Shown here: positions 1 through 26,390 of the stretch, piece by piece
Position numbering within the stretch: the first letter of the stretch is position 1
How the letters are laid out: each line of letters opens with the position of its first letter
Source of the DNA: Chitinophaga pinensis
GTDB lineage: Bacteria; Bacteroidota; Bacteroidia; UKL13-3
Direction: 5' to 3'
DNA: 39,155 nucleotides
Assembly: GCA_945870425.1 (NCBI GenBank)
Contig: CAMBSD010000021.1
Span: 1 to 39,155 of the forward strand
The notes under the pieces: generated by a model
What the model was told of the DNA's origin: nothing
What the model saw: only the letters and a program-made list of their open reading frames with translations
Databases searched by the model: none
Translations under genes and position numbers: made by a program

Positions 1-3000
1 ATGAATACACCTGATCCATCATTTACCGCGTTATCTCCAAATGATTGCGTTAATGCTGAACTGAAGTCAAACGATGTGTTTGAAGCATTAATCTGAACCG
101 GATTTGCACTTGATGTAGTGATAGAGTTACGATGTTTGATATAGATATAATAAGAATTACCTATAGCTCCACCAGGGAAGGTAACATTAGCTATTCCACT
201 AGTATTTAATAAAGCAGTAGCACTATAAGATATAACAGCGCTATTAGTTGGGTCGTGCAACTCAACAGTAATTGTATCTGCTATTGAGCTTGATGTAACA
301 CCATCAGCATTGAATGGAGAAGCTGTCATTGCTCCAGCTCCAGTATACAAACCTTGTAAATAAGCCGTTAAGTATATCGACACATTACTTACAGTAGTTT
401 CAGTTAATGATGATGAATTTGAAGAAGCTCCACAACCGTTAACAGCTCTAACTCTAAAGTAGTAGGTAGTTCCTGCTGATAATCCTGTAACAGATTGAGA
501 ATTACTACTAACACTTAAGTTATTATAACCAGAAACCATAGAAGTGAAATTTGAATTTGTAGCCACATCTAATTGGTATCCTGTTGCACCTGAAGTAGCG
601 TTCCAAGTTACATCAATTGAATTTGAAGTTGTACTAACAGTCGTAGGGGCATTGGTTGCAATTGGCAATGGGTTAGTTGATACCGCAACAGTTGTTGAAT
701 CCAAACATCCAAGTATGTTCATTACCACTTTGTAAGTAGTGTTAACAGTTGGATTAGCCACCTGAGGGTTAGTTGAACCAATTACCGAAGTACCATTTGA
801 CCAACTTAATGAATTAAACGCAGGACCAACAATACCTGAGAAGGTAACAAATGGTCTATTTGCATAAGTTGCAGTTCCAGTTGTGTTAGTACAAGCACCG
901 ATATTTGCTAATAAACTAACATTAGATACATTCGAAGGAGTTGTAGCTGCAACGGCAGATGATCCACCAAATGTAGAAACATTGTAGCAAATATTAATTA
1001 ATAGGTCTGAAGTACCATTCCAATTGTATGGTGTATTGAAGGTATGAACATTAGTTCCAAAAACAGGTTGGTATGTTGCAGCTGTATACACTTGTGTTAA
1101 AGTTGCGGCATCAAATGTAGTAGATAATGTAGATGAACTAGCGGTACCTAAGCTAATGGTATAATTGTTAGTTGAGCCTGTTCCAGCGGCTGTTACATCA
1201 AATGCAATCGCAGTAATGTCTCCCGAACCTAAACCTAAAGCATTTAGTTCAGCAGCTGTGAATACTAATTGATGTCTAAAGTCGCCTGTTCCTGCACCTG
1301 TGCGATAAACACTTCCACCGAACTCAGTTGTTGTTGCAGTACCAGAAGTAGTACCAGCATTACCGGCTAACAATGTTAAAGTTGTTGGGCTACCAGCACA
1401 AACTGTTGAAGGATTTGCTGACGCAGATCTTGTTAATCCATTATATGGATCAACTACATTGATGCTTACATTTGATGAAGTTACACAACCGGTAGAAGTC
1501 TCAACACCTGAAATAGTGTAAACATAATTACCAGCTGCTGACGGAGAAATAGTTAATGGAGTATTTAATGCCCCCGTTGTACTAGAACCCAAACCACTTC
1601 CTGCATAACTATTGGCTGTCCATGTTAAACTATAACTATTATTAGTCAACGCTTGGCTAACTGATAAATCTATAGTTGAATTTGCACAAACATTGGTAGT
1701 TTTGGTTGAACTAGCAACAATTGGGTTAGGTGTTGAAACAGTTATTAAAACAGGTATTCTTGCGCTTTCGCAGGTACCATTAGAAATAGAAACATAAAGC
1801 GTTGTTGTTGTTCCTACATAGTATGAACTTAAGGTGCTATTTGTTTCACCCTGTAAAGCAAATCCACCTATGATATCAGTGTACCAACGGTAATCTCCAT
1901 TGTTTGCACCTGAAGCAGAGCAAGTTGGAATTTGGTTACCACAATGTGCTGAAGGAGATGTAGTTGGATCACTAGGGATGGCAGTTGGATTAACCACAAC
2001 CATGGCAGTATCAGTACATCCCATTACATTCATGCTTACAGTGTAAGTAGTTGTAGCACTAGGGCTAACAAACACTGGGTTTGTTGTTCCTACATTGGTA
2101 GTTCCATCATTCCAAGTAAATGAAGCCGAACCTGTAATATTCATGGTATACTCTTCCCATTCTCCATAGAATATGGCTTGAGTTGGGCTAGTTAAAAGTG
2201 CTTCGGTAGTACCAATACGCATTCTAGTTGCGCCAATTTTTGCATTGGTAGGAACTGTGAACGAACCAGTTTCAGTATGTGCACCAGAAGTGGTTGTAGC
2301 CGAACTATATACCATTTCTCCCGCATCAGTGAAAACTCCATTGCGGTTGAAATCTATAAAGATACCGAAACCATGATTATATGCAAAACCTTGATCTGAT
2401 GAACTTATTGAGAAATTATAAGTCGAACCAGGTGTTATACCATAAGGTCCAAAGCTAGTAAAATCTGAAAAACCACCAGCAACACCAGTTGCAGTACCAA
2501 TGGTTCCAACTAATTCATTGTTTAAAGAAGAATTATCAAGAATGGTAGTTGCACCACTTGTAATGGTAATATTAGAAATATCCTCATCAGCAGTTGGAGA
2601 AGTAACAGCTGGTGGAGGTGTGTATGAAGGTGTGCCTGATAACAAGGCAGATGTAAATGTTAAGGTGGTTGGTGTATTTGCGCAGAATGTTGAAGGATTA
2701 ACTGTTATTGTTTTTCCTACGAATGGAGCAATTACGCTAACCGTTACTTGCGAACTTACCGAACATCCTGTTGAGGCTTCTGTTCCAGACACAGTGTACA
2801 CGTATGTACCAGTAGCAGCTGGGGTCAAAGTCAATGGGTTATTTAATGAAGTTCCTATTGAAGCAGTCAAACCGCTATTGATAGAATCTGATGAAGTCCA
2901 ATTTAACGAGTAGCTGTTGTTTGACGATGCTTGAGATACACTTATATCAAAAGAATTACCTAAACATGCAGCTTGAGCCACTGATGCTGATGCAATAATT

Positions 3001-6000
3001 GGGTCAGGAGTAGTTACAGTTAAGGTAACTGGCACACGGCCTGAATTATTCACACAGAATCCATTATAAGTTTCAACATAATACGTTTTAGTTGAAGTTA
3101 AATTTGGAGTAGTGTATGAAGCACCCCATGCAATTGGAGAACCACCAATTGAATCGTTATACCACTTAATGGTATCAGTTGCATTCAATGAAGCAGAATT
3201 CGATATTGTCAATAAAGCTGAACCTTGTCCACAAACTGTATTACCAGCTGTTATAGGATCCACAGGTTTTGCAATCGTAACGATATCAATGGTTGAAGGG
3301 CTAGCAGCATTCGAACAACCCGTAGTTAAGTTGGTTAATACCAAAGAAACAGAAGTGGTACCTACACTAGAAATATTAGTTGTAGCTTGGAATATGTTGG
3401 TTCCTGAGGTAGTTCCAGATAAAGAACCCGATGGAGACCAAACAGTGCTATAATTTGACGGAGGTGAAAATCTGTAAGCAACTGGAGTGGTTATAGCTGC
3501 AGTTGAAGCATAAGCCAGAGCGCCAATTGTACCATCTCCATTATTGATACCGCAAACTTTATTGTTTGTTGAAGCTGAATTTAATATATGTTCTTCAATG
3601 ACACCAGTAGTTTCATAAAAAATGGCTTGGGCAGTTGTTAAATTTCCTGTATTAGCATATTGAGGAGCTTGGAAATACTCTATAACAAATTTCCTATTTG
3701 GAGCTGTACCTTCTGTCCAATAACGAACTATACCTGCTGTTAAGTTATTATCATTGGCACATAATGCCAACATATTAAACGGTTCACCAGTACTTGGTAA
3801 AGTTGTGAATGTAAAATCACCCAAACCATATGGAGCAGTAAATCCTCCATTAGCATTGTATGTGCCAAACATCATTGTTCCATTTGTTCCAACATTAATG
3901 GTTGAATAAGGGGTACCAAAGAAATTGAAAGAAAATCCGATAGGAATAGAACTCCAACCACCATCATCTAAACCACCTGAAGCTAAAGCAACTGTTGCTG
4001 TTCCACCTGAACATAGGTTAGTAGCACTAACTGGAGCGGTTAAAGGAGAATAAGCTATCGTGCTAGATGAGAATGCACCTGCCACCAAACCAGTACCAAT
4101 AGTTACTGGAGTGCCTAAACAAACCGTATCGTTTGGTGTAGTTGTAAAATTAGGAGTTGGGAAATCATACACCCCTACAGTGATATCAGCATTTTGAGTA
4201 CAATTTCCGTCAGTTGCGGAAACTCTAAACAAGCTAGTAGCATTTAAATTAGCAGTAACCGGGTTACCTACATTTGAATTGAAACTTGCACCAGGACTGG
4301 TAGTTGACCAAGTATAGCTGGTAAAGTTTATATCTGAAGAAGTTGCAGTTAAATCATCCGTTTGAGCGCCTTGTCCGCAGAACCAAGGGGTAACTGCAGA
4401 AATAGTTAAAGCATTCACTTTTGAAATGATTTGTTGTCTTGGTGAAGATTCACAACCAGTCACCGTATCAATTTCAGTAACATATGAAGTATCAGTAGCT
4501 GTTAATGAAGTGCTATAAGTAGTTGAATACGAGTTTTGTTTTGTAGTGCCTGCTGTAGCTGCACTATACCATTTATACTTAGGTGCAGCGTAACCTGAAG
4601 TTGAAGCCACAGATGCAGTAGGCAAACCAGGACAAGAAACTGCACTGGTGGTAGAAGGAGCTGTAGGAGGTGTTGCCACGTTTAAAGTAATGCTTGGGCT
4701 AGGAGTAAAAGTACATCCTGCAGCAAAAATCGTTGCTGTATAGGTTGTAGTTGAACTTGCCGAAACAGTTACTGGATTTGAAGTAGAGAAGTTACTAGAA
4801 CCATCACTCCAAGAATAAGTTGGCAGTGTACTTGGTGTAAAAACAAACTTTGGTCTTGTAGTACCAGTGGTACCAGTAGTGTAAGCGGCCATAGCAGCCA
4901 TGGGTTGGTTATCTGCTTGGTTATATACTGAACATGTAAAACCAGGGTTATCAACTTGCATAGTTGTTGGAGTAGATGTACCAGCCAACGGATTGAGTGA
5001 CCAACTGATTGAAATTACCAAGTTAGAAACACCATCCCAAGTAAATGAACTGGCTGAACCTGTTCCTGTTCCGAATACCAAATTATTCACAACATTGGCA
5101 ACAGGTAATATACCTGAATTGGTAAGTGTACCTTCAAATACTTTAGTCAAACTTGCATTTGGCACATAGGTAGAAGTTGTTGTAGTTTGTGTTGTATGAC
5201 CAACCAACATTTGAAATCCTTGATAAGTTTGTCCTACAACTGTTGGCACATAACCAATTTGGGAAATACCACCTGCCAAAACACCCGCTGCAGATAATTC
5301 AGATGCTCTGATGATATATTGAGTTTTTGCGCCACCCCAGAAACCTGGGAAGAAAGATGCAGCCGTTGCACTTGAAGTACTAGCTCCAGCACCAACTGAA
5401 ACAACACCCCCTGTACCTGAATAATTCGCGGTTAGCGTTGCAGTAGATCCCGAACAAATAGTTGAAACTGAAGAAGTAACATTTGCCGAAGAACTAAACA
5501 ATGGCTCATCCTTATATGAAGTACCTGTAGCTGATTTTGTTAAACTGTTAGCATCAGTGGCAGTTACACTCCAAGTTACAGTTGCATTGGCAGGCGTAAC
5601 AGTTGGAATATCACCTGACCAGTCATTACCACTTGTATTGGTCATGGCAATAGCTGTTTGTGCAACACCATTCAGACTGTAGTTTAAGGCCACGCCAATT
5701 ACTGCTGCTCCACCAGGAGTGGCAGTAACTGTAACTGTTCTTAAAACATTTGTACAAGCATTACCTGTTGGGGTAATAGCCAATGCACTTAAGGTAGCAG
5801 CTGCTTTGTTACCCATACAATAAAATCCAACAATATTGGTAGCAGCAGGGGCTGTTGTTGTTAATGAAGTTGAAGTAGATGTTATAGAAACACCACCCAC
5901 TATATCATAAGCACCTGTTAAAGTGGCACTAGCTGCGATAGCATCAGCACCAGCAGGGGCATCATTCAATTTAATTAATGCATCAGTAAAATTGGCAGCA

Positions 6001-8714
6001 CCAGAAGTGATAGATGCAGCCCAATACCTGTTGGTATTTAATGTTCCCATTAAAGTACCAGCCGTACCACCTGCATTGGCATCAAATACCTCTGCCTGAA
6101 CAGTAACTGATCCGCCTGTGTTGGTGTTTGGATTTACCAATTCAAAAGCATTTAAAGATCCTTTACCCACAGGGAAAATATAATTTGAGGCTGTTGCGTA
6201 ATTTGCGGGAATACTTCTAGCAATGGCACCTTTAACATAAGATGTAGCTGAACCTCCAGAAATAGCTCCAACAGCGGTATTTGATAATGTCAAAACATAT
6301 CCGCTATTATCTAGGATACCAGCAGTAAGTGTCAACACACCTGCAGTTCCGTTTAATGTAGTTGAATATGGAATAGTAACCACATTGGCAGGAGAGGTTG
6401 AAGTATTGTTAATGGTTAATGAAGATGGCCCGCCTGTGGCAGGTAATTCAAAACTAGTAGCAGTTTGAGCGCCTGTTGAACCATTGTATGTTAAAACAGA
6501 AGTTGAACCATTATAAGAAATCGAGCCAGTACCCGAGATACCACCTCTAGTAATTATTACATTACGTGCAGAATATGCTGAGGTTAAATTTACACCTGCA
6601 GCATTATTCACTCTCAAATTAATAACATTGGTTCCATGAGAACCTGTAACTAAAGTTAAAGTAGATGCACTTGTTCCATTAAATTCTAAAGTACCGGTAG
6701 CAGATGTTTGAATAATTGAACCGCCAGTTTGAACAAAATTTCCAGAAACTCTTAAAAAAGAAGAACTACCTTGGGCGATATCAAATGTACCACCTGCGAT
6801 ATTTACATTACCTAAAACATTTAAAATACCTGTTGTACTGGCTACTTCAAAAGTTCCACCATTTACGTTTAAATTTCCGTTAATAGATATATTACCAGAA
6901 GTTAATGCTCTAAATCTACCCGTATTGGTAGCATTTATCGTCAAATTACCTTTAATAACAGCAACTGTTCCAGTAGTCCAAGCACTCATTGTAGCTGTTG
7001 CGCTAGCACAGTTGTAAGTAACATTACCAAATGACTGTGCATTATTTGTAAAGCCAGTTGCTGTAGTTATACTGTTAAAAGTTAGTGTAGATGTTGTAGC
7101 CCAAGTAGCCAATGGAACCGTTACACCAGTTGTTGCACCATTAACATTATAAGCCGAACCAGCTGCAAAAGACATAGTAGCCACAGAACCTGTGAAATAA
7201 CTTCCTGTTCCAACTGTACCATTATTAATAACACCTGTAGAACCAATAGTTACTAAAGTACCAGTACCGCCCGTAGAATTGAAAGTATTAGAAATACTTC
7301 CACCTAAATTGTAAGTACCAGAAATATCACCTGTATTACCTGTACCAGAGAATGCAAATGAAACGGCATTTGTGGTACTTGTGGTAGTTAAGGTACTTCC
7401 AGATTCAATAACAAAATCAGCTCCAGGGCAACCTGTAACTGTAATAGCTCTTGTAGTTGTAGCGCTAGAAACTAGAGATAAAGTAGTATTGCTAGTCACT
7501 TTAAATTGACCAATTGAAAAACTGGTAGCATCAACAGATATAGATACACTTCCACCAGGAGTGGTGCCTGCACCATCCACAATCATAACATCTGTAGTTG
7601 CTACAACAGATCTAGTGCTTCCTGTACCTGCAGGATCTGTATTCCAGTTAGCAGCTGTATTCCAAGTGCCACTTGTTGATCCTACCCAATAGTAAGTTGT
7701 TGGATTTACAGTAGCCTGAGTGGCAAGAGATGAGATTGCATTACCTTCTAGGTATGCTGCAACCCTGTAATAATAAGTAGTTCCGGGAGTTAAACCTGTT
7801 TGTGCAGAAGAATAAGTAGTTCCAGAACCTGCAACCGTTGTTGAAGTAATATTAGCTCCAATTTGAGTAAAGTTTACATTATCTGTAGAACGGAAAACCC
7901 TAAAACCAGTTTCGTCTGTTGAATTATCTGTCCAACCTAAAGTCATACTGGTGGTTGTAACAGCGGTTGTGGTTAAAGAAATAGGCGCTGACGTTGGAGC
8001 AGTGCCTTCACGTACCACCAAATTATCGATAAATACGTCAGAACTTCCGTAAGTTGCTGCCATTTGAAATCCAAACTTAGCATTTGCAACATTATATCCA
8101 GGAGGAATAGCTAAAACTCTTGTTGGCCACACACCTGATGTAGTAGTTGCAAGCGCACTGATGGTATTCCAAGTTAGCCCACCATCATTAGAACCTACAA
8201 ATGTGCATGCTGTTCCGCTGCCTGCATAGCTAAATGAAAACGATACAACAGGGCTAGTTGATGTACTTAAATCAATAGCTGGAGATTCTATTCTTCTGGT
8301 ATTACCAGTATAGGTATTTCCATCATAGAACCAAAGTACGTTTGAACCTTGAGGCGGTAAAGTTGGAGCACCACCATAAGGAGCACATCCGCTTGTACTA
8401 GTACCTGCGAAGTTAACAGCAGTATAGGAAGTACCCCATAACATTTGCCCCCAATCGTGCGGTGCGCCTGCGCACGCGCCTGGCACAACATTGTTAAGTA
8501 CCCTAGTTTGAGTCCAAGTACTAGGTGCATTAGGACCTGCTGCAGTAGCAGCAGTAGCAGAGTTTCCATTAAGGTACCAGGTACCTTCGAAACCCTCCGT
8601 AAAATAGGTTTGCGCTTTCAACGCATTCGTTCCAAGCAGTAGTAATAAAATTACTGTGGAAGCTAAGGTCCTGAACACTGTCAGTCCCCTTCGTTTTGTA
8701 ATTGTTTTTGTCAT
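1..8714 (-). CDS. Giant secreted multidomain adhesin-like protein, 3' end outside window
   Basis: One frame stays open from the ATG at 8714 to the left edge, giving at least 2904 residues with no stop. Residues 1-35 form a signal peptide ending near LKAQ. Then, approximately: a MAM/jelly-roll-like domain (40-240); FN3 (243-326); a YYWVG...WNTAANW module leading into Gly/Ser/Thr/Asn-rich beta-helix-like sequence (341-880); several Ig-like/PKD-like domains marked by CxGxxxTL and TTTYTV strands; a GEVED-like domain (2079-2188, ending YGEWEEYTMNI); a second FN3 (2691-2771); and a domain with YYIYIKHRNS (2774-2904) that in Bacteroidota usually comes shortly before the C-terminus. It is very rich in Thr/Ser/Gly and poor in Lys and Arg. 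Inference: a cell-surface or secreted T9SS client used in adhesion or matrix. The sorting domain is not visible, so the export route is inferred from the family. Ligand unknown. Confidence 0.9.
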   Translation of the reverse strand, partial: MTKTITKRRGLTVFRTLASTVILLLLLGTNALKAQTYFTEGFEGTWYLNGNSATAATAAGPNAPSTWTQTRVLNNVVPGACAGAPHDWGQMLWGTSYTAVNFAGTSTSGCAPYGGAPTLPPQGSNVLWFYDGNTYTGNTRRIESPAIDLSTSTSPVVSFSFSYAGSGTACTFVGSNDGGLTWNTISALATTTSGVWPTRVLAIPPGYNVANAKFGFQMAATYGSSDVFIDNLVVREGTAPTSAPISLTTTAVTTTSMTLGWTDNSTDETGFRVFRSTDNVNFTQIGANITSTTVAGSGTTYSSAQTGLTPGTTYYYRVAAYLEGNAISSLATQATVNPTTYYWVGSTSGTWNTAANWNTDPAGTGSTRSVVATTDVMIVDGAGTTPGGSVSISVDATSFSIGQFKVTSNTTLSLVSSATTTRAITVTGCPGADFVIESGSTLTTTSTTNAVSFAFSGTGNTGDISGTYNLGGSISNTFNSTGGTGTLVTIGSTGVINNGTVGTGSYFTGSVATMSFAAGSAYNVNGATTGVTVPLATWATTSTLTFNSITTATGFTNNAQSFGNVTYNCASATATMSAWTTGTVAVIKGNLTINATNTGRFRALTSGNISINGNLNVNGGTFEVASTTGILNVLGNVNIAGGTFDIAQGSSSFLRVSGNFVQTGGSIIQTSATGTLEFNGTSASTLTLVTGSHGTNVINLRVNNAAGVNLTSAYSARNVIITRGGISGTGSISYNGSTSVLTYNGSTGAQTATSFELPATGGPSSLTINNTSTSPANVVTIPYSTTLNGTAGVLTLTAGILDNSGYVLTLSNTAVGAISGGSATSYVKGAIARSIPANYATASNYIFPVGKGSLNAFELVNPNTNTGGSVTVQAEVFDANAGGTAGTLMGTLNTNRYWAASITSGAANFTDALIKLNDAPAGADAIAASATLTGAYDIVGGVSITSTSTSLTTTAPAATNIVGFYCMGNKAAATLSALAITPTGNACTNVLRTVTVTATPGGAAVIGVALNYSLNGVAQTAIAMTNTSGNDWSGDIPTVTPANATVTWSVTATDANSLTKSATGTSYKDEPLFSSSANVTSSVSTICSGSTATLTANYSGTGGVVSVGAGASTSSATAASFFPGFWGGAKTQYIIRASELSAAGVLAGGISQIGYVPTVVGQTYQGFQMLVGHTTQTTTTSTYVPNASLTKVFEGTLTNSGILPVANVVNNLVFGTGTGSASSFTWDGVSNLVISISWSLNPLAGTSTPTTMQVDNPGFTCSVYNQADNQPMAAMAAYTTGTTGTTRPKFVFTPSTLPTYSWSDGSSNFSTSNPVTVSASSTTTYTATIFAAGCTFTPSPSITLNVATPPTAPSTTSAVSCPGLPTASVASTSGYAAPKYKWYSAATAGTTKQNSYSTTYSTSLTATDTSYVTEIDTVTGCESSPRQQIISKVNALTISAVTPWFCGQGAQTDDLTATSSDINFTSYTWSTTSPGASFNSNVGNPVTANLNATSLFRVSATDGNCTQNADITVGVYDFPTPNFTTTPNDTVCLGTPVTIGTGLVAGAFSSSTIAYSPLTAPVSATNLCSGGTATVALASGGLDDGGWSSIPIGFSFNFFGTPYSTINVGTNGTMMFGTYNANGGFTAPYGLGDFTFTTLPSTGEPFNMLALCANDNNLTAGIVRYWTEGTAPNRKFVIEYFQAPQYANTGNLTTAQAIFYETTGVIEEHILNSASTNNKVCGINNGDGTIGALAYASTAAITTPVAYRFSPPSNYSTVWSPSGSLSGTTSGTNIFQATTNISSVGTTSVSLVLTNLTTGCSNAASPSTIDIVTIAKPVDPITAGNTVCGQGSALLTISNSASLNATDTIKWYNDSIGGSPIAWGASYTTPNLTSTKTYYVETYNGFCVNNSGRVPVTLTVTTPDPIIASASVAQAACLGNSFDISVSQASSNNSYSLNWTSSDSINSGLTASIGTSLNNPLTLTPAATGTYVYTVSGTEASTGCSVSSQVTVSVIAPFVGKTITVNPSTFCANTPTTLTFTSALLSGTPSYTPPPAVTSPTADEDISNITITSGATTILDNSSLNNELVGTIGTATGVAGGFSDFTSFGPYGITPGSTYNFSISSSDQGFAYNHGFGIFIDFNRNGVFTDAGEMVYSSATTTSGAHTETGSFTVPTNAKIGATRMRIGTTEALLTSPTQAIFYGEWEEYTMNITGSASFTWNDGTTNVGTTNPVFVSPSATTTYTVSMNVMGCTDTAMVVVNPTAIPSDPTTSPSAHCGNQIPTCSASGANNGDYRWYTDIIGGFALQGETNSTLSSYYVGTTTTLYVSISNGTCESARIPVLITVSTPNPIVASSTKTTNVCANSTIDLSVSQALTNNSYSLTWTANSYAGSGLGSSTTGALNTPLTISPSAAGNYVYTISGVETSTGCVTSSNVSINVVDPYNGLTRSASANPSTVCAGSPTTLTLLAGNAGTTSGTATTTEFGGSVYRTGAGTGDFRHQLVFTAAELNALGLGSGDITAIAFDVTAAGTGSTNNYTISLGTASSSTLSTTFDAATLTQVYTAATYQPVFGTNVHTFNTPYNWNGTSDLLINICYNVSTFGGSSAVAATTPSNVSNVSLLANIGACTNTTGTATYANRPFVTFSGIVGPAFNSLSWSNGTSVIGSTNPQVANPTVNTTYKVVMNILGCLDSTTVAVSTNPLPIATNAPTTVSTTSNSIDVTWNATSGATGYQLDVATNSNFTSMVSGYNNLSVSSNSQSVTGLSAGTTYYFRVRAVNGCGASSNSSSLTETTVSNVSIYLTAYLQGLYTGAGAMTASPFNADGVTSSSIADTITVELHDPTNSAVISYSATALLNTSGIANVTFPGGAIGNSYYIYIKHRNSITTSSANPVQINASNTSFDFSSALTQSFGDNAVNDGSGVF

Positions 8715-19952: not shown

Positions 19953-19979
19953 AAAACCAGCTTAGGCTGGTTTTTTTTT
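19953..19979 (+). terminator. Shared convergent terminator
   Basis: AAAACCAGC (19953-19961), loop TTAG, GCTGGTTTT (19966-19974), then T to 19979 on the plus strand; the minus strand reads the same stem followed by TTTTAATA. The minus-strand stop codon of the Kir channel gene (plus 19962-19964) lies in the loop, so one hairpin serves both converging genes. Confidence 0.9.
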
Positions 19980-20927
19980 GCCTATTTCCAATATTTCATA
20001 AGCACCAATCATATCCATATGCAGAACTGTGGCTTGGCCATCTTTATCTCTTTCGAACATTGGTATAAATTTGGCTCCAAACACAATTTCTTGCGCGGTA
20101 TACGAAAACCTGTAATGAACTATTTGAGAATAGGTATCATCAAAACCTTTGAAGGCCAAAATCAATTCGGACTCGGTATCCAACAAATCTTGCATCGAAA
20201 GACCATACATTGGGCTATCCTCTTCAATAGGATGCACAATGGTCCAACTTAATGAGAGGGCACTCACTTTTTCATATTCTAATTTTAAAGTTAAAAATCG
20301 TCTTACTGAGGTTTCTTTTTCAATGTAACTTAACATCATTCGCGCTTCGCATTCTATCAATTGGTTGTTTCTTGCATTGGCAATTCTTAGCATAACGGCT
20401 GTTTTATTTTGAAAGGGTGAAATAACAGCATTTTCACTTCTAATAAGTTTAACATTAGGTCTTGAAAAACGACCATAAAGCAAACCTGTGGCCAAGGCAA
20501 ATGCCATCAAACCTATGAGTGACTCGATAGCCGCAACAGTACTTGCAGCATTACCAATTGGATTAATCCTACCAAAACCAACAGTGGTGAAGGTTTGAGT
20601 GCTAAAGAAAAAAGCTTCGAAAAATTTATCTTTTTGTGTATACCCAATTATGCCCCCTAAGTGCTCAATTCCAATATAAAAGTATAGAAAGGCAAAAATT
20701 AAATTTACCGTAAAATAAAATGCGAAGATTATTAAACTAAAGTGCATCCACGACATTAATATTAGGTCGTGAAAGGGGTTGAAACGATTAAATAATGGAA
20801 GTCCGTCTCGTTTTACATTAAAACTTCCATCCTTATTTACCAGTCGGTTTCCTTGGACCTGCGCTTGAGAACCAAATCCAGTATACTTATCTTCATTTTG
20901 CCTATTGAATACTATTTTTCTTCTCAT
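19962..20927 (-). CDS. Inward-rectifier potassium channel (KirBac-like)
   Basis: 321 residues. An N-terminal slide-helix-like region (PFHDLILMSWMHF) precedes TM1 (about 62-84), a pore helix, the selectivity filter TVGFG (115-119, in TQTFTTVGFGRINPIG) and TM2 (about 127-150). Residues 155-315 form the beta-rich cytoplasmic domain of Kir channels (SENAVISPFQNKTAVMLRIAN). KirBac proteins are tetrameric K+ channels of the inner membrane. The filter has TVGFG rather than TVGYG, which is common in Kir channels. The gene starts 5 bases after the murI stop, so the two share a transcript. Confidence 0.95.
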   Translation of the reverse strand: MRRKIVFNRQNEDKYTGFGSQAQVQGNRLVNKDGSFNVKRDGLPLFNRFNPFHDLILMSWMHFSLIIFAFYFTVNLIFAFLYFYIGIEHLGGIIGYTQKDKFFEAFFFSTQTFTTVGFGRINPIGNAASTVAAIESLIGLMAFALATGLLYGRFSRPNVKLIRSENAVISPFQNKTAVMLRIANARNNQLIECEARMMLSYIEKETSVRRFLTLKLEYEKVSALSLSWTIVHPIEEDSPMYGLSMQDLLDTESELILAFKGFDDTYSQIVHYRFSYTAQEIVFGAKFIPMFERDKDGQATVLHMDMIGAYEILEIGKKKPA

Positions 20928-22739: not shown

Positions 22740-23300
22740 ATGAAAAGAGTTTTTCCCATAATGTTAATAGCAGGTATTTTCCTTTTTGCTTCATGCAACA
22801 AGCTTGAACAATTTAATGACCTGTACATTAGATTAAACCTCTCTTCAAAGAGTTTATGGTTTAATTTTGACTCTACAGACTCCGTTAAAAGTTTCGAAAT
22901 TTCAAAAGTTGGAAACTATATTAATATTGACAGCATACTTCAGAGCAACTCGGTCGATACAAGCAAAATTCAAACAGTTAAAATATCTAAAATCAACTTC
23001 AGTATTGATACTACAAATGGTGTTTCCAAAGAAAACAATTTCGATTTCCTAAAAAACATGTCAGTCTCCTGCAAAGTTGACAATCCTTCATTTGATTATA
23101 TTGAGCTTGGGAAAGCAGACTCAATAAAATCTAGTATGATGTCATTTGATATGATTGTACCAAACATCGAAGTTAAAGATATTATTAGAATGGATGAAAT
23201 TCGATATAGAATGAAAGGTTGGAACAAAAAACCTATGGGTAAAACCAAAGTAATTGTAACAATTAACTACACCGTTGACGCTGCCCTCTCAAACAAATAA
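22740..23300 (+). CDS. Hypothetical lipoprotein
   Basis: 186 residues, lipoprotein signal with lipobox FASC (Cys19). The mature part alternates Ser/Asp/Ile/Lys, resembling a beta-sandwich, and ends with VIVTINYTVDAAL. No catalytic motif or known family recognised. A -7-like TATTTTTG at 22686-22693 lies about 46 bases before the ATG; the only TTTG upstream is at a short spacing of 15. The stop is 2 bases from the stop of the opposing T9SS gene, with no hairpin between. Confidence 0.8.
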   Translation: MKRVFPIMLIAGIFLFASCNKLEQFNDLYIRLNLSSKSLWFNFDSTDSVKSFEISKVGNYINIDSILQSNSVDTSKIQTVKISKINFSIDTTNGVSKENNFDFLKNMSVSCKVDNPSFDYIELGKADSIKSSMMSFDMIVPNIEVKDIIRMDEIRYRMKGWNKKPMGKTKVIVTINYTVDAALSNK

Positions 23301-23302
23301 GT

Positions 23303-24055
23303 TTATTCTTTTATAAACTTCGTAGTTTTCACAAAACCATTTTCGTTTACATATTTCATAAAATAAACACCTTTTGTTAGGATAGAAATATCGATTTCAG
23401 TTTTAGTTTTATTGATTGCCGTTCTTGAAATTTCGCGGCCATTTATATCCGTAATAATTCCATCTGCATTTATAAATGAATTTTGAGAAACATTTAGCTC
23501 CAATTTGTCTTTAGCAGGATTTGGGTATAAACTAATCACATCGCTATTAATCAATTCATTCACATTGCTTTGGCTTTGAACATAAATAGCATATTTCGAA
23601 TTTGAGTCATTAATGTTTTGGCTGATTGGCCCCAAAATGGTATTTGCTGTGCCTTTTATTTTTATCATCACCACCAATGGGTAATTTGTGTTTTTCATAG
23701 CCTCGGTTGCTGTTCCTGTAATTGTTACACAGCCATTGCCTCCTCCTTTGATTCCGCAATTAGTGTTGTGGCATGTATACGTAAAACCTAAAGGCATTCC
23801 TTTAACACCTGTAATAAACAAGCTATCAATAGTAGCTTTGATATTTTGGCCTAAATAATTAATTAAGGTATCTTTGGTAATGTAAAACTGCAAAACTTGG
23901 CTGTAAGCCACATTGGGCGTAGCAGCAGGTAAGGAAGAAGGAAATACACCAGAGGACTTAATACTCGCATCGGGCAGACATTGTGCATTGGTATCAATAA
24001 TAAAAAATGAAGAAATTGAAATTAAAAATGCAATTTGTTGTAATAACTTTTTCAT
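23303..24055 (-). CDS. T9SS-exported protein with C-terminal sorting domain
   Basis: 250 residues from the ATG at 24055 (MKKLLQQIAF...), which gives a clean signal peptide ending TNAQ; an ATG at 24109 would add 18 residues without a signal character. Residues 25-165 look like a beta-sandwich with four Cys (CLPDAS, TCHNTNCG, NGCVTITG) and a repeated GVPxG/VKGMPLGF strand pattern found in putative Ig domains. The end is a T9SS type A domain: ISLYPNPAKDKLELNV, TDINGREISR, LTKGVYFMKYV. Its start lies 10 bp from that of the divergent TonB receptor. Confidence 0.85.
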   Translation of the reverse strand: MKKLLQQIAFLISISSFFIIDTNAQCLPDASIKSSGVFPSSLPAATPNVAYSQVLQFYITKDTLINYLGQNIKATIDSLFITGVKGMPLGFTYTCHNTNCGIKGGGNGCVTITGTATEAMKNTNYPLVVMIKIKGTANTILGPISQNINDSNSKYAIYVQSQSNVNELINSDVISLYPNPAKDKLELNVSQNSFINADGIITDINGREISRTAINKTKTEIDISILTKGVYFMKYVNENGFVKTTKFIKE

Positions 24056-24065
24056 ATTTGTTGTG

Positions 24066-26390
24066 ATGAATATTTTTTCAAGTTTAGCATATAAATCAAT
24101 TATATGCATATTTTTATTCTTAATTTTTATAAATAGGCTTCATGCCCAAAAAATTCAATTAAGTGGTAAAGTTATGGACTTTGAGAGCAATGAAGCACTC
24201 ATAGGCGCCATCATTTCTATTGACAATAACATTATTTCATCAACTGATAATAGAGGGAATTTTAGCCTTAATTATAAACTTAACAAACAAATTAATAAGT
24301 TAAAATTGCAAGTGATGTACTTAGGATATGATACCCATTCTGATAGTATATTAATTACCAACCGAAGTGAAATAGAACTTAGCATCAAACTTAAAACTAG
24401 TAAAAACCAATTAGACCAATTAATTGTTTCCGCAGGCAGGTATGAACAATCTGTAAAAAAAGTAACTGTTTCAACCGAAGTCATCAAACCCTATTTAATT
24501 GAAAACCGCATTACCACAAATATGGATAAGTTGGTTGACCAAATTCCAAGCGTGAATGTTGTAGATGGACAAGTTAGCATAAGAAGCGGCAGCGGATGGA
24601 GCTATGGCGCAGGCTCCAGGGTAATGGTATTGTTAGATGGCATCCCTTTTCTTTCAGGAGATGCAGGTCAGCCTCAATGGAAGTTTTTGCCAATAGAAAA
24701 TGTAGAGCAAGTAGAGGTTATTAAAGGCGCTTCATCCGTTTTATATGGAAGCTCGGCATTGAACGGGATGATAAATTTTAGAACCAAATTGGCCAGCGAC
24801 AAACCCATTACCAATATCAATTTGTTTTCGGGTGTATACAACAATGCACCCCGCAAAGATTTGCAATGGAGCAATAAGGCAAGGCTACAAAATGGTTTCA
24901 ATATTTTCCATTCAAACAAATACGAAAACATGGCCTATGGCATAGGCCTCAACTATTTTAAAGATGATGGCTACCGATGGGGCGAAAATGATCAAAGACT
25001 AAGAATTAGTTTTAATACCCGTTTCAATTCAAAGAAAATTCCATCACTACAATATGGCCTAAATGGGAGCATTTTGGTAACAGATGCAGCATCTTTTCTG
25101 CTTTGGGAAAGCTACAAATATGGCTATATTGCGGGTGATACACTCATAACCAACACGAATTCATACAACCATTCATTCGACCCTTATGTGAGTTTTATTA
25201 GGGGCAGAATAAAACACAATTTTAAAGGTCGCTGGGTTTATTCGAACAATAGAATTTATAACCCCGACCCGACAGTAAATCAAAACAACGCCAATCACAC
25301 TTTGTATAGCGAATACCAATCACAGATAAGCTTATCAAAAGAATTCTTGTTAAATGCTGGACTTGTGAGCCAATACACTATAAGTAATTCACCTTTGTTT
25401 CAAGGCAAGCAGAATGCATCCAACTATGCGGGGTTTGCCCAATTGGATTATAACCACAAGCGTTGGAGTGCCAATGCAGGTATGCGCTACGAAACATATA
25501 GTATTAATGGCAATTCAGAAAGCAAACCCGTTTTCAGAACAGGTCTTAACTTTGAAGCGGCCAAAGCCACTTTTATCAGAGCTAGTTTTGGACAAGGCTA
25601 TCGCTTCCCAACCATTGCCGAAATGTTTATTTCCACTACTGCAGGTTCTATAACGGTTGTACCCAATCCAAATTTAAAATCAGAAAGCGGATGGAATGCC
25701 GAGATAGGCCTAAAACAAGGCTTTAAAATAAAAGGCTTTAAAGGATTTGTAGATGCTGCCTATTTTTTCACCCAATACCAAAACATGATGGAATTTAATT
25801 TTGGGTTATTTAAAGTTGACAAAGACAACAATGGTGTACCTGCTTTTAAAAGTTTAAATGTGGGTGAAACAAGAATAACAGGTGCTGAAATTTCAATTTC
25901 TGGAGAGGGTAAAATTGGCGAAGTTCTTATTCAAAGTATTTTAGGTTACACTTACACCAATCCTATTGCTTTGCAACCTGACTTGGTATATTCGTATGAC
26001 TTAGGGCAATCACCTACACCAAGAAATTACAGCAGTTCAAGTTCTGACACAACTGCTAATAACCTTTTAAAATACCGCTTTCAACATTTGGCAAAGTTGG
26101 ATGTACAGGCTACTTATAAAAAATGGAGTTTGGGACTTAGCTCCAGGTACAACAGTTATATGGGCAATATTGACAAATTCTTCCTTTTTCTTTATCCAGA
26201 TTTAAACGATGCAAGAGGTATGGGCAAAGAGGGCGATTTGATTTTTGATGCACGTGGTTCTTATAAAATAAACCAAAAGCTAACAACCAACTTAATGGTG
26301 AGCAACCTCCTTAACCGCGAGGTGATGACCCGCCCTGCAGACCTTCGCCCACCGCGTTTGTTTGTATTGCAATTACAAATAAAGCTATAA
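24066..26390 (+). CDS. TonB-dependent outer-membrane receptor
   Basis: 774 residues from the ATG at 24066, which gives a signal peptide (1-28, ending RLHAQ). A carboxypeptidase-regulatory-like domain (about 30-110: LSGKVMDFESNEALIGAII) precedes the plug (about 125-240) with LVDQIPSVNVVDG, VMVLLDGIPF and VEVIKGASSVLYGSSALNG, and a 22-strand-type barrel to the end (QGYRFPTIAEMF, FVLQLQIKL). Such receptors import siderophores, cobalamin, sugars or peptides with energy from TonB-ExbBD. The plug is closest in style to the FepA/BtuB group rather than SusC; no SusD-like gene is adjacent. Substrate unknown. Converges with the 26405 gene. Confidence 0.94.
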   Translation: MNIFSSLAYKSIICIFLFLIFINRLHAQKIQLSGKVMDFESNEALIGAIISIDNNIISSTDNRGNFSLNYKLNKQINKLKLQVMYLGYDTHSDSILITNRSEIELSIKLKTSKNQLDQLIVSAGRYEQSVKKVTVSTEVIKPYLIENRITTNMDKLVDQIPSVNVVDGQVSIRSGSGWSYGAGSRVMVLLDGIPFLSGDAGQPQWKFLPIENVEQVEVIKGASSVLYGSSALNGMINFRTKLASDKPITNINLFSGVYNNAPRKDLQWSNKARLQNGFNIFHSNKYENMAYGIGLNYFKDDGYRWGENDQRLRISFNTRFNSKKIPSLQYGLNGSILVTDAASFLLWESYKYGYIAGDTLITNTNSYNHSFDPYVSFIRGRIKHNFKGRWVYSNNRIYNPDPTVNQNNANHTLYSEYQSQISLSKEFLLNAGLVSQYTISNSPLFQGKQNASNYAGFAQLDYNHKRWSANAGMRYETYSINGNSESKPVFRTGLNFEAAKATFIRASFGQGYRFPTIAEMFISTTAGSITVVPNPNLKSESGWNAEIGLKQGFKIKGFKGFVDAAYFFTQYQNMMEFNFGLFKVDKDNNGVPAFKSLNVGETRITGAEISISGEGKIGEVLIQSILGYTYTNPIALQPDLVYSYDLGQSPTPRNYSSSSSDTTANNLLKYRFQHLAKLDVQATYKKWSLGLSSRYNSYMGNIDKFFLFLYPDLNDARGMGKEGDLIFDARGSYKINQKLTTNLMVSNLLNREVMTRPADLRPPRLFVLQLQIKL

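Follow-up and report, generated by a model that had tools for sequence, protein, structure and literature searches.

A conserved head-to-head T9SS/TonB gene pair with each candidate core promoter lying within the partner's signal-peptide codons

Introduction

In Flavobacterium psychrophilum, TAnnTTGY has been described as an alternative -7 motif (SM5) located at -12 to -5 of the transcription start site (PMC9723704, part consulted). Two further described systems bring opposite transcripts close together. At bidirectional promoters with a shared -10, both transcripts start on either side of a single -10 element or inside it, and in E. coli competition between the two sides matters only when one of them is strongly active (PMC12825309, part consulted). 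In the excludon, a case of 5' overlapping transcription, a long transcript runs across the oppositely oriented neighbour (PMC7154746, part consulted). Here we analyse a divergent gene pair in the window, i.e. the whole stretch of 39,155 nt of DNA under study, which stems from a genome of 2.96 Mb assembled in 43 contigs. From sequence comparison we lean, with a little more confidence than doubt, towards a conserved head-to-head pair whose core promoters would be nested in each other's signal-peptide codons. None of the titles listed by the literature searches reported this T9SS/TonB pair or, for Bacteroidota, promoters nested in this way.

Results

The junction and its two proteins

The coding sequence of a T9SS-sorted secreted protein (23303..24055, minus strand; 250 aa) and that of a TonB-dependent receptor (24066..26390, plus strand; 774 aa) start back to back in the window. 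The minus ATG (CAT at 24053-24055) and the plus ATG (24066-24068) enclose a strandless intergenic spacer of 10 bp (24056..24065), equal in length in the sister species G001; the sequence-only reading, which had placed two divergent ATGs (24055 minus, 24066 plus) 10 bp apart, is thus confirmed on the window sequence. By eye, each protein opens with a stretch that resembles a signal peptide and terminates in AQ (MKKLLQQ...TNAQ and MNIFSS...LHAQ). An alternative receptor start, GTG at 24063 (plus), reads GTA in the sister species, and an alternative T9SS start, ATG at 24109 (minus), would add 18 residues ahead of the signal peptide. Further inside the genes, no ATG, GTG or TTG occurs in the receptor frame within 60 nt past its ATG, and no other one in the T9SS-gene frame ahead of codon 49 in the window. 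Comparison with the relatives' junctions favours the starts at 24055 and 24066.

A lipoprotein-like ORF (22740-23300, plus) stops 2 bp from the stop of the T9SS gene (23303, minus), which is therefore tightly packed at both ends. Elsewhere the window holds a giant ORF (3-8714, minus) of at least 2904 aa that extends past the window edge, and a homologue of inward-rectifier potassium channels (19962-20927, minus) with IRK and IRK_C domains.

The 250 aa protein is laid out as a signal peptide, a Cys-containing N-terminal domain and a C-terminal T9SS type A sorting domain (Por_Secre_tail, E=3.9e-13; TIGR04183). As type A cargo should, all 16 members scanned carry Por_Secre_tail at the C-terminus. 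No convincing Pfam match was found for the N-terminal domain in these 16 members, the weak ones being He_PIG (1/16, E=0.0037) and DUF3244 (3/16, best 0.0012). The receptor combines a CarboxypepD_reg-like domain with the plug and barrel of TonB-dependent receptors; among the best 25 of 26 NCBIfam families, none passed its own cut-off. The two proteins are probably partners, and their partnership survives changes of orientation: in the relatives, receptor paralogues stand tail-to-tail beside similar T9SS genes at 9 of 32 paralogue loci under a strict criterion. One paralogous receptor (G000:C7:16000-18330 and relatives) is 35% identical and has its T9SS-like neighbour tail-to-tail in, e.g., G020, G009 and G022. 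Receptor and T9SS genes are codirectional in G035 and G045.

Conservation of the arrangement

At E<=1e-150, 37 of 64 genomes of the family, belonging to 8 of 14 genera, contain the receptor. A T9SS homologue lies head-to-head with it at every one of the 35 tabulated junctions (blastp; weakest E=2.6e-4, for a copy cut by a contig end), with gaps of -2 to 33 bp (median 12) over 8 genera. Conservation of the arrangement, which had been proposed as a check when the pair was first noticed, is therefore borne out. Gaps of -2 bp, in which the two ATGs overlap as CATG, occur in nine genomes; the others are 7 bp (one genome), 10 (two), 12 (eight), 13 (seven), 14 (three), 16 (two), 21 (one) and 33 (two). 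Thus, in the window as at the 35 junctions, the start codons of the pair are too close for separate promoters. Aligned receptors go down to 42% identity with that of the window, and the arrangement is therefore old. The 35 junctions include the window's own; G062 and one G032 locus, both cut by contig ends, were left out (the G032 junction is readable in L048, with a gap of 12, outside the 35), as were the named-genome loci, which for the most part represent organisms already included. Starts were picked by eye wherever more than one ATG could serve (e.g. G015, G058, G067, G072), and in two of the 35 the receptor starts with another codon (GTG in G082; TTG in G020, which is uncertain).

Ten receptor loci from other families (L023, L024, L026-L031, L033, L034) showed no T9SS gene beside the receptor start; in three of them a DprA-like gene is divergent from the receptor, as judged by eye. 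At one of the ten, L028 (G036, ~1468-1490), the receptor begins MPRY with CCAAGGTAT, possibly a remnant or an independent TAnnTTGG box, and the divergent neighbour resembles dprA, not the T9SS gene. A further genome of another family, G056 (L327, contig 7490-7667), has the pair head-to-head with a gap of 176 bp, as an uncompacted version would look, and offers a useful wide-gap comparison.

Tight divergent pairs are uncommon, though not unique, since gaps of 20 bp or less were seen in 8 (simple gene caller) or 12 (leftmost ATG) of 157 divergent pairs sampled from four genomes. In a 439 kb sample of the source genome the corresponding numbers were 1 and 2 of 53, with median gaps of 288 and 233 bp, respectively. 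The samples of G000, G019 and G002 include the region of the T9SS/TonB pair itself, and the caller is crude, having dropped one gene of this very pair. In the G066 sample 6 of 51 divergent pairs had such gaps by leftmost ATG. Further nested-promoter pairs may exist in the same family.

Candidate -7 boxes in both coding regions

In the window, a candidate -7 box of the T9SS gene, TAAACTTG, lies inside the receptor coding region (24079..24086, minus; TonB codons 5-7) and starts 31 nt before the T9SS ATG. It is identical in G001, and its best hit with a position weight matrix (PWM) reaches p=0.053 against random genome windows. With the box start set at -12, the T9SS transcript is predicted to begin at 24074 (minus; TonB codon 3) with a leader of ~19 nt. 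At 34 of the 35 junctions, in 7 of 8 genera, a TAnn(n)TTG box begins 23-32 nt before the T9SS ATG, reading TATCTTGC or TATCTTGG in 25 of the 34; G007 is the one junction at which it is absent. The box falls wholly within the receptor coding sequence in 32 of 35 genomes (exceptions: G021, G010). When the search window was shifted 38 times deeper into the coding region, boxes were found at a mean of 5% (maximum 26%).

On the other side, a TonB-side box inside the T9SS coding sequence is present in 32 of 35 genomes and 7 of 8 genera (e.g. TAATATTG, TATTATTG, TATTTTGG), starting 25-54 nt upstream of the receptor start in the relatives; the corresponding shifts gave a mean of 9% and a maximum of 38%. 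The region of the relatives' box corresponds to 24026..24042 (plus) in the window, a T9SS coding stretch without a clear box: among the 35 junctions searched, none was found in G000, G001 and G015, and hence none in the window. For G003 the tabulated box is a second, more distant one, and with its nearer TATCATTG box, at 25 nt, the overlap is 27 nt as usual. Box classes and search windows were picked after viewing the alignments; in class and spacing the boxes agree with -7 types known from Bacteroidetes.

The known Bacteroidetes promoter TTG-N17-20-TAnnTTTG is enriched in the source genome (23 upstream regions versus 2.6 expected), as is TAnnTTTG (67 of 227 versus 32 expected). TATCTTG is hardly enriched upstream of the sampled genes (observed/expected: G000 0/3.7, G066 5/1.6, G019 1/1.1, G002 3/0.9). 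At the junctions themselves single-genome matches are weak: with a two-box matrix, best hits with p<0.05 were obtained for 2 of 35 T9SS sides and 3 of 35 TonB sides, and no consistent -33 triplet was found across the 35. Since the matrix does not separate single sites from random windows, we rely on cross-genome conservation and the shifted-window nulls. A sigma-70 scan, whose model is unsuited to the phylum, gave 7 sites versus 10.7 expected in shuffles and was set aside. The G000-G001 comparison does not decide the matter: the two junctions differ at 4 positions in 80 nt, and 18 of 150 windows do equally well or better.

Synonymous-site constraint

We scored each column of the codon alignments by the same-codon rate of genome pairs sharing the amino acid, relative to the gene and amino-acid expectation. 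The receptor columns bearing the T9SS box (GCA/CCA and AGA) rank first and second of 643 (0.65 and 0.64; third 0.35). The residues [A/P]RY are encoded there in 26 of 35 genomes; all 26 spell the first residue with GCA or CCA, and 25 spell the Arg with AGA, which makes up 29% of the Arg codons elsewhere in these genes. [A/P]RY keeps its codons whether it stands at codon 2, 3, 6 or 7. That the box-coding residues are a mere signal-peptide motif is weakened by this codon choice, but may hold at the level of the amino acids. Within genus g3, the receptor's conserved codons are fixed relative to the T9SS start while the receptor ATG shifts by five codons. The top five of 187 columns in the T9SS gene lie within codons 5-12; the predicted box of the receptor spans roughly codons 5-10, depending on the genus, and the conserved codon 12 falls outside. 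Synonymous conservation in 16 g3 genomes was 0.320 for the receptor and 0.284 for the T9SS gene.

Over codons 2-12 of the receptor paralogue there was no effect, neither in 29 genomes (mean -0.032, P=0.76) nor in 15 g3 genomes (mean -0.094, P=0.97). This control used signal-peptide-guided starts, obtained for 29 of 33 loci; two g2 starts still look wrong, and G015 and G022 have some minus ORF start within 60 nt. A subtilase showed no start-proximal effect either (P=0.63), and a control on T9SS paralogues (P=0.09) was too small, with 9 sequences. In contrast, an OmpA-like gene displayed a milder start-proximal effect that peaked at codons 2-3 (P=0.0002; mean 0.123, maximum 0.44). All P values serve only as guides, as the permutations assume independent columns and the genomes are related. 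Because of the OmpA-like control, a start-proximal bias that is real in some genes may explain part of the signal; in our judgement it is insufficient for its size or position. Taken together, the relatives have candidate -7-type boxes in both coding sequences that seem conserved beyond the needs of the protein; in the window a box was found on one side, and one of three control genes also displays start bias.

Discussion

The conserved boxes and codons suggest the following arrangement. The T9SS promoter would have its -7 box just inside the receptor gene, reading left, and the receptor promoter would have its own just inside the T9SS gene, reading right, so that the promoters face each other although the genes diverge. 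If transcription begins 12 nt past the first base of the box, following the published motif, the prediction is leaders of 11-20 nt for the T9SS gene and 13-42 nt for the receptor, with start sites about 23-37 bp apart and leaders that would be complementary over that stretch. For the 31 genomes with both boxes the predicted overlap is 23-37 nt (median 27), a range bounded by the search windows. The footprints of two polymerases would then overlap and, as the promoters face each other across the junction, the two could hardly initiate together. Because only the T9SS-side box is visible in the window, this full model is best supported in the relatives (g2, g3, g8) and extrapolated to the window. 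The claim of the sequence-only reading that each promoter lies inside the other gene's coding region, with overlapping 5' ends, thus finds backing in the relatives, with conserved boxes at fixed sites and synonymous conservation, and less in the window, in which no TonB-side box was found; single-genome promoter matches are weak.

The same tight junction could also be read in other ways. Transcripts might be leaderless or have very short leaders, starting in or beside the 10 bp gap, so that only the upstream promoter halves would reach into the neighbour and the leaders would not overlap. In the window, CATATTTG (24053-24060; 7/8 to TAnnTTTG by eye) would place the 5' end of the TonB transcript roughly at its ATG, and two relatives with 33 bp gaps have a perfect TAnnTTTG within the gap (TATATTTG, TACATTTG), its first base being 25 nt ahead of the ATG. 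We nevertheless consider this rather unlikely, given that just 5.5% of mRNAs are leaderless in F. psychrophilum, where the leader has a median length of 24 nt (PMC9723704, part consulted), and that the relatives' conserved boxes begin 23-32 nt upstream on the T9SS side and 25-54 nt upstream on the TonB side. Wrong annotation of one start, with a wider true gap, is highly improbable, even though mispredicted starts usually account for divergent overlaps longer than 60 bp (PMC2478687, part consulted) and the choice is uncertain in a few relatives such as G020, where a later ATG instead of TTG would give a gap of 64 bp. Signal peptides begin at both ATGs, the window offers no later in-frame start close by, and the head-to-head arrangement with its tight gap is conserved at all 35 junctions over 8 genera; the possibility of a wrong start, raised when the spacing was first noted, therefore loses most of its ground.

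The conserved DNA might instead be an operator, another binding site or a translation-initiation context, with the tight spacing reflecting compaction with a shared regulator. The start-proximal conservation of the OmpA-like control and the inconsistent -33 elements fit this reading, while the two controls without such conservation (receptor paralogue and subtilase), the g3 codons that keep their place relative to the T9SS start and the class and spacing of the boxes speak against it; we judge it unlikely. Returning to nested promoters, a mutually exclusive expression switch, by which a cell would make mainly the receptor or mainly the secreted partner at a time, could build on face-to-face promoters, whose -7 boxes apparently belong to two classes in some genera, and on ATGs merged into CATG in nine genomes, but seems quite unlikely to us. 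Polymerase mutual exclusion or antisense pairing as a means of regulation is speculative. Nested promoters are not separable by simple rearrangement, which could alone explain the persistence of the arrangement; this may need no regulation at all.

In eight genera of one family, both the residues and the codon choice of two signal peptides appear to be dictated by regulatory DNA, and entanglement of this kind may hold gene order in place. Being simple and testable, the junction lends itself to work on promoter competition in Bacteroidota; it also cautions gene finders, as the gene lost to the simple caller illustrates.

Compared with SM5, the boxes TATCTTGC, TAAATTGC, TACCTTGC and TAACTTGC conform to TAnnTTGY and sit at a distance compatible with a leader, whereas the g2 and g8 boxes end mostly in G rather than Y and the window box TAAACTTG is nearer to the sigma-A form TAnnTTTG (PMC9723704, part consulted). 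As at bidirectional promoters with a shared -10, one short piece of DNA would give rise to two opposite transcripts, with polymerases not simultaneously on both sites; unlike there, the junction would carry two facing boxes inside two coding sequences, with overlapping leaders predicted (PMC12825309, part consulted). If the boxes are real promoters, they are separate, 46-60 bp apart from start to start, and not one shared -10. Since competition in E. coli is limited to pairs with a strongly active side, the same caution applies to the T9SS/TonB pair. With the excludon and 5' overlapping transcription the pair shares opposite neighbours, predicted overlapping transcripts and possible mutual repression, but in place of a long transcript across the neighbour the predicted overlap here is just ~27 nt (PMC7154746, part consulted).
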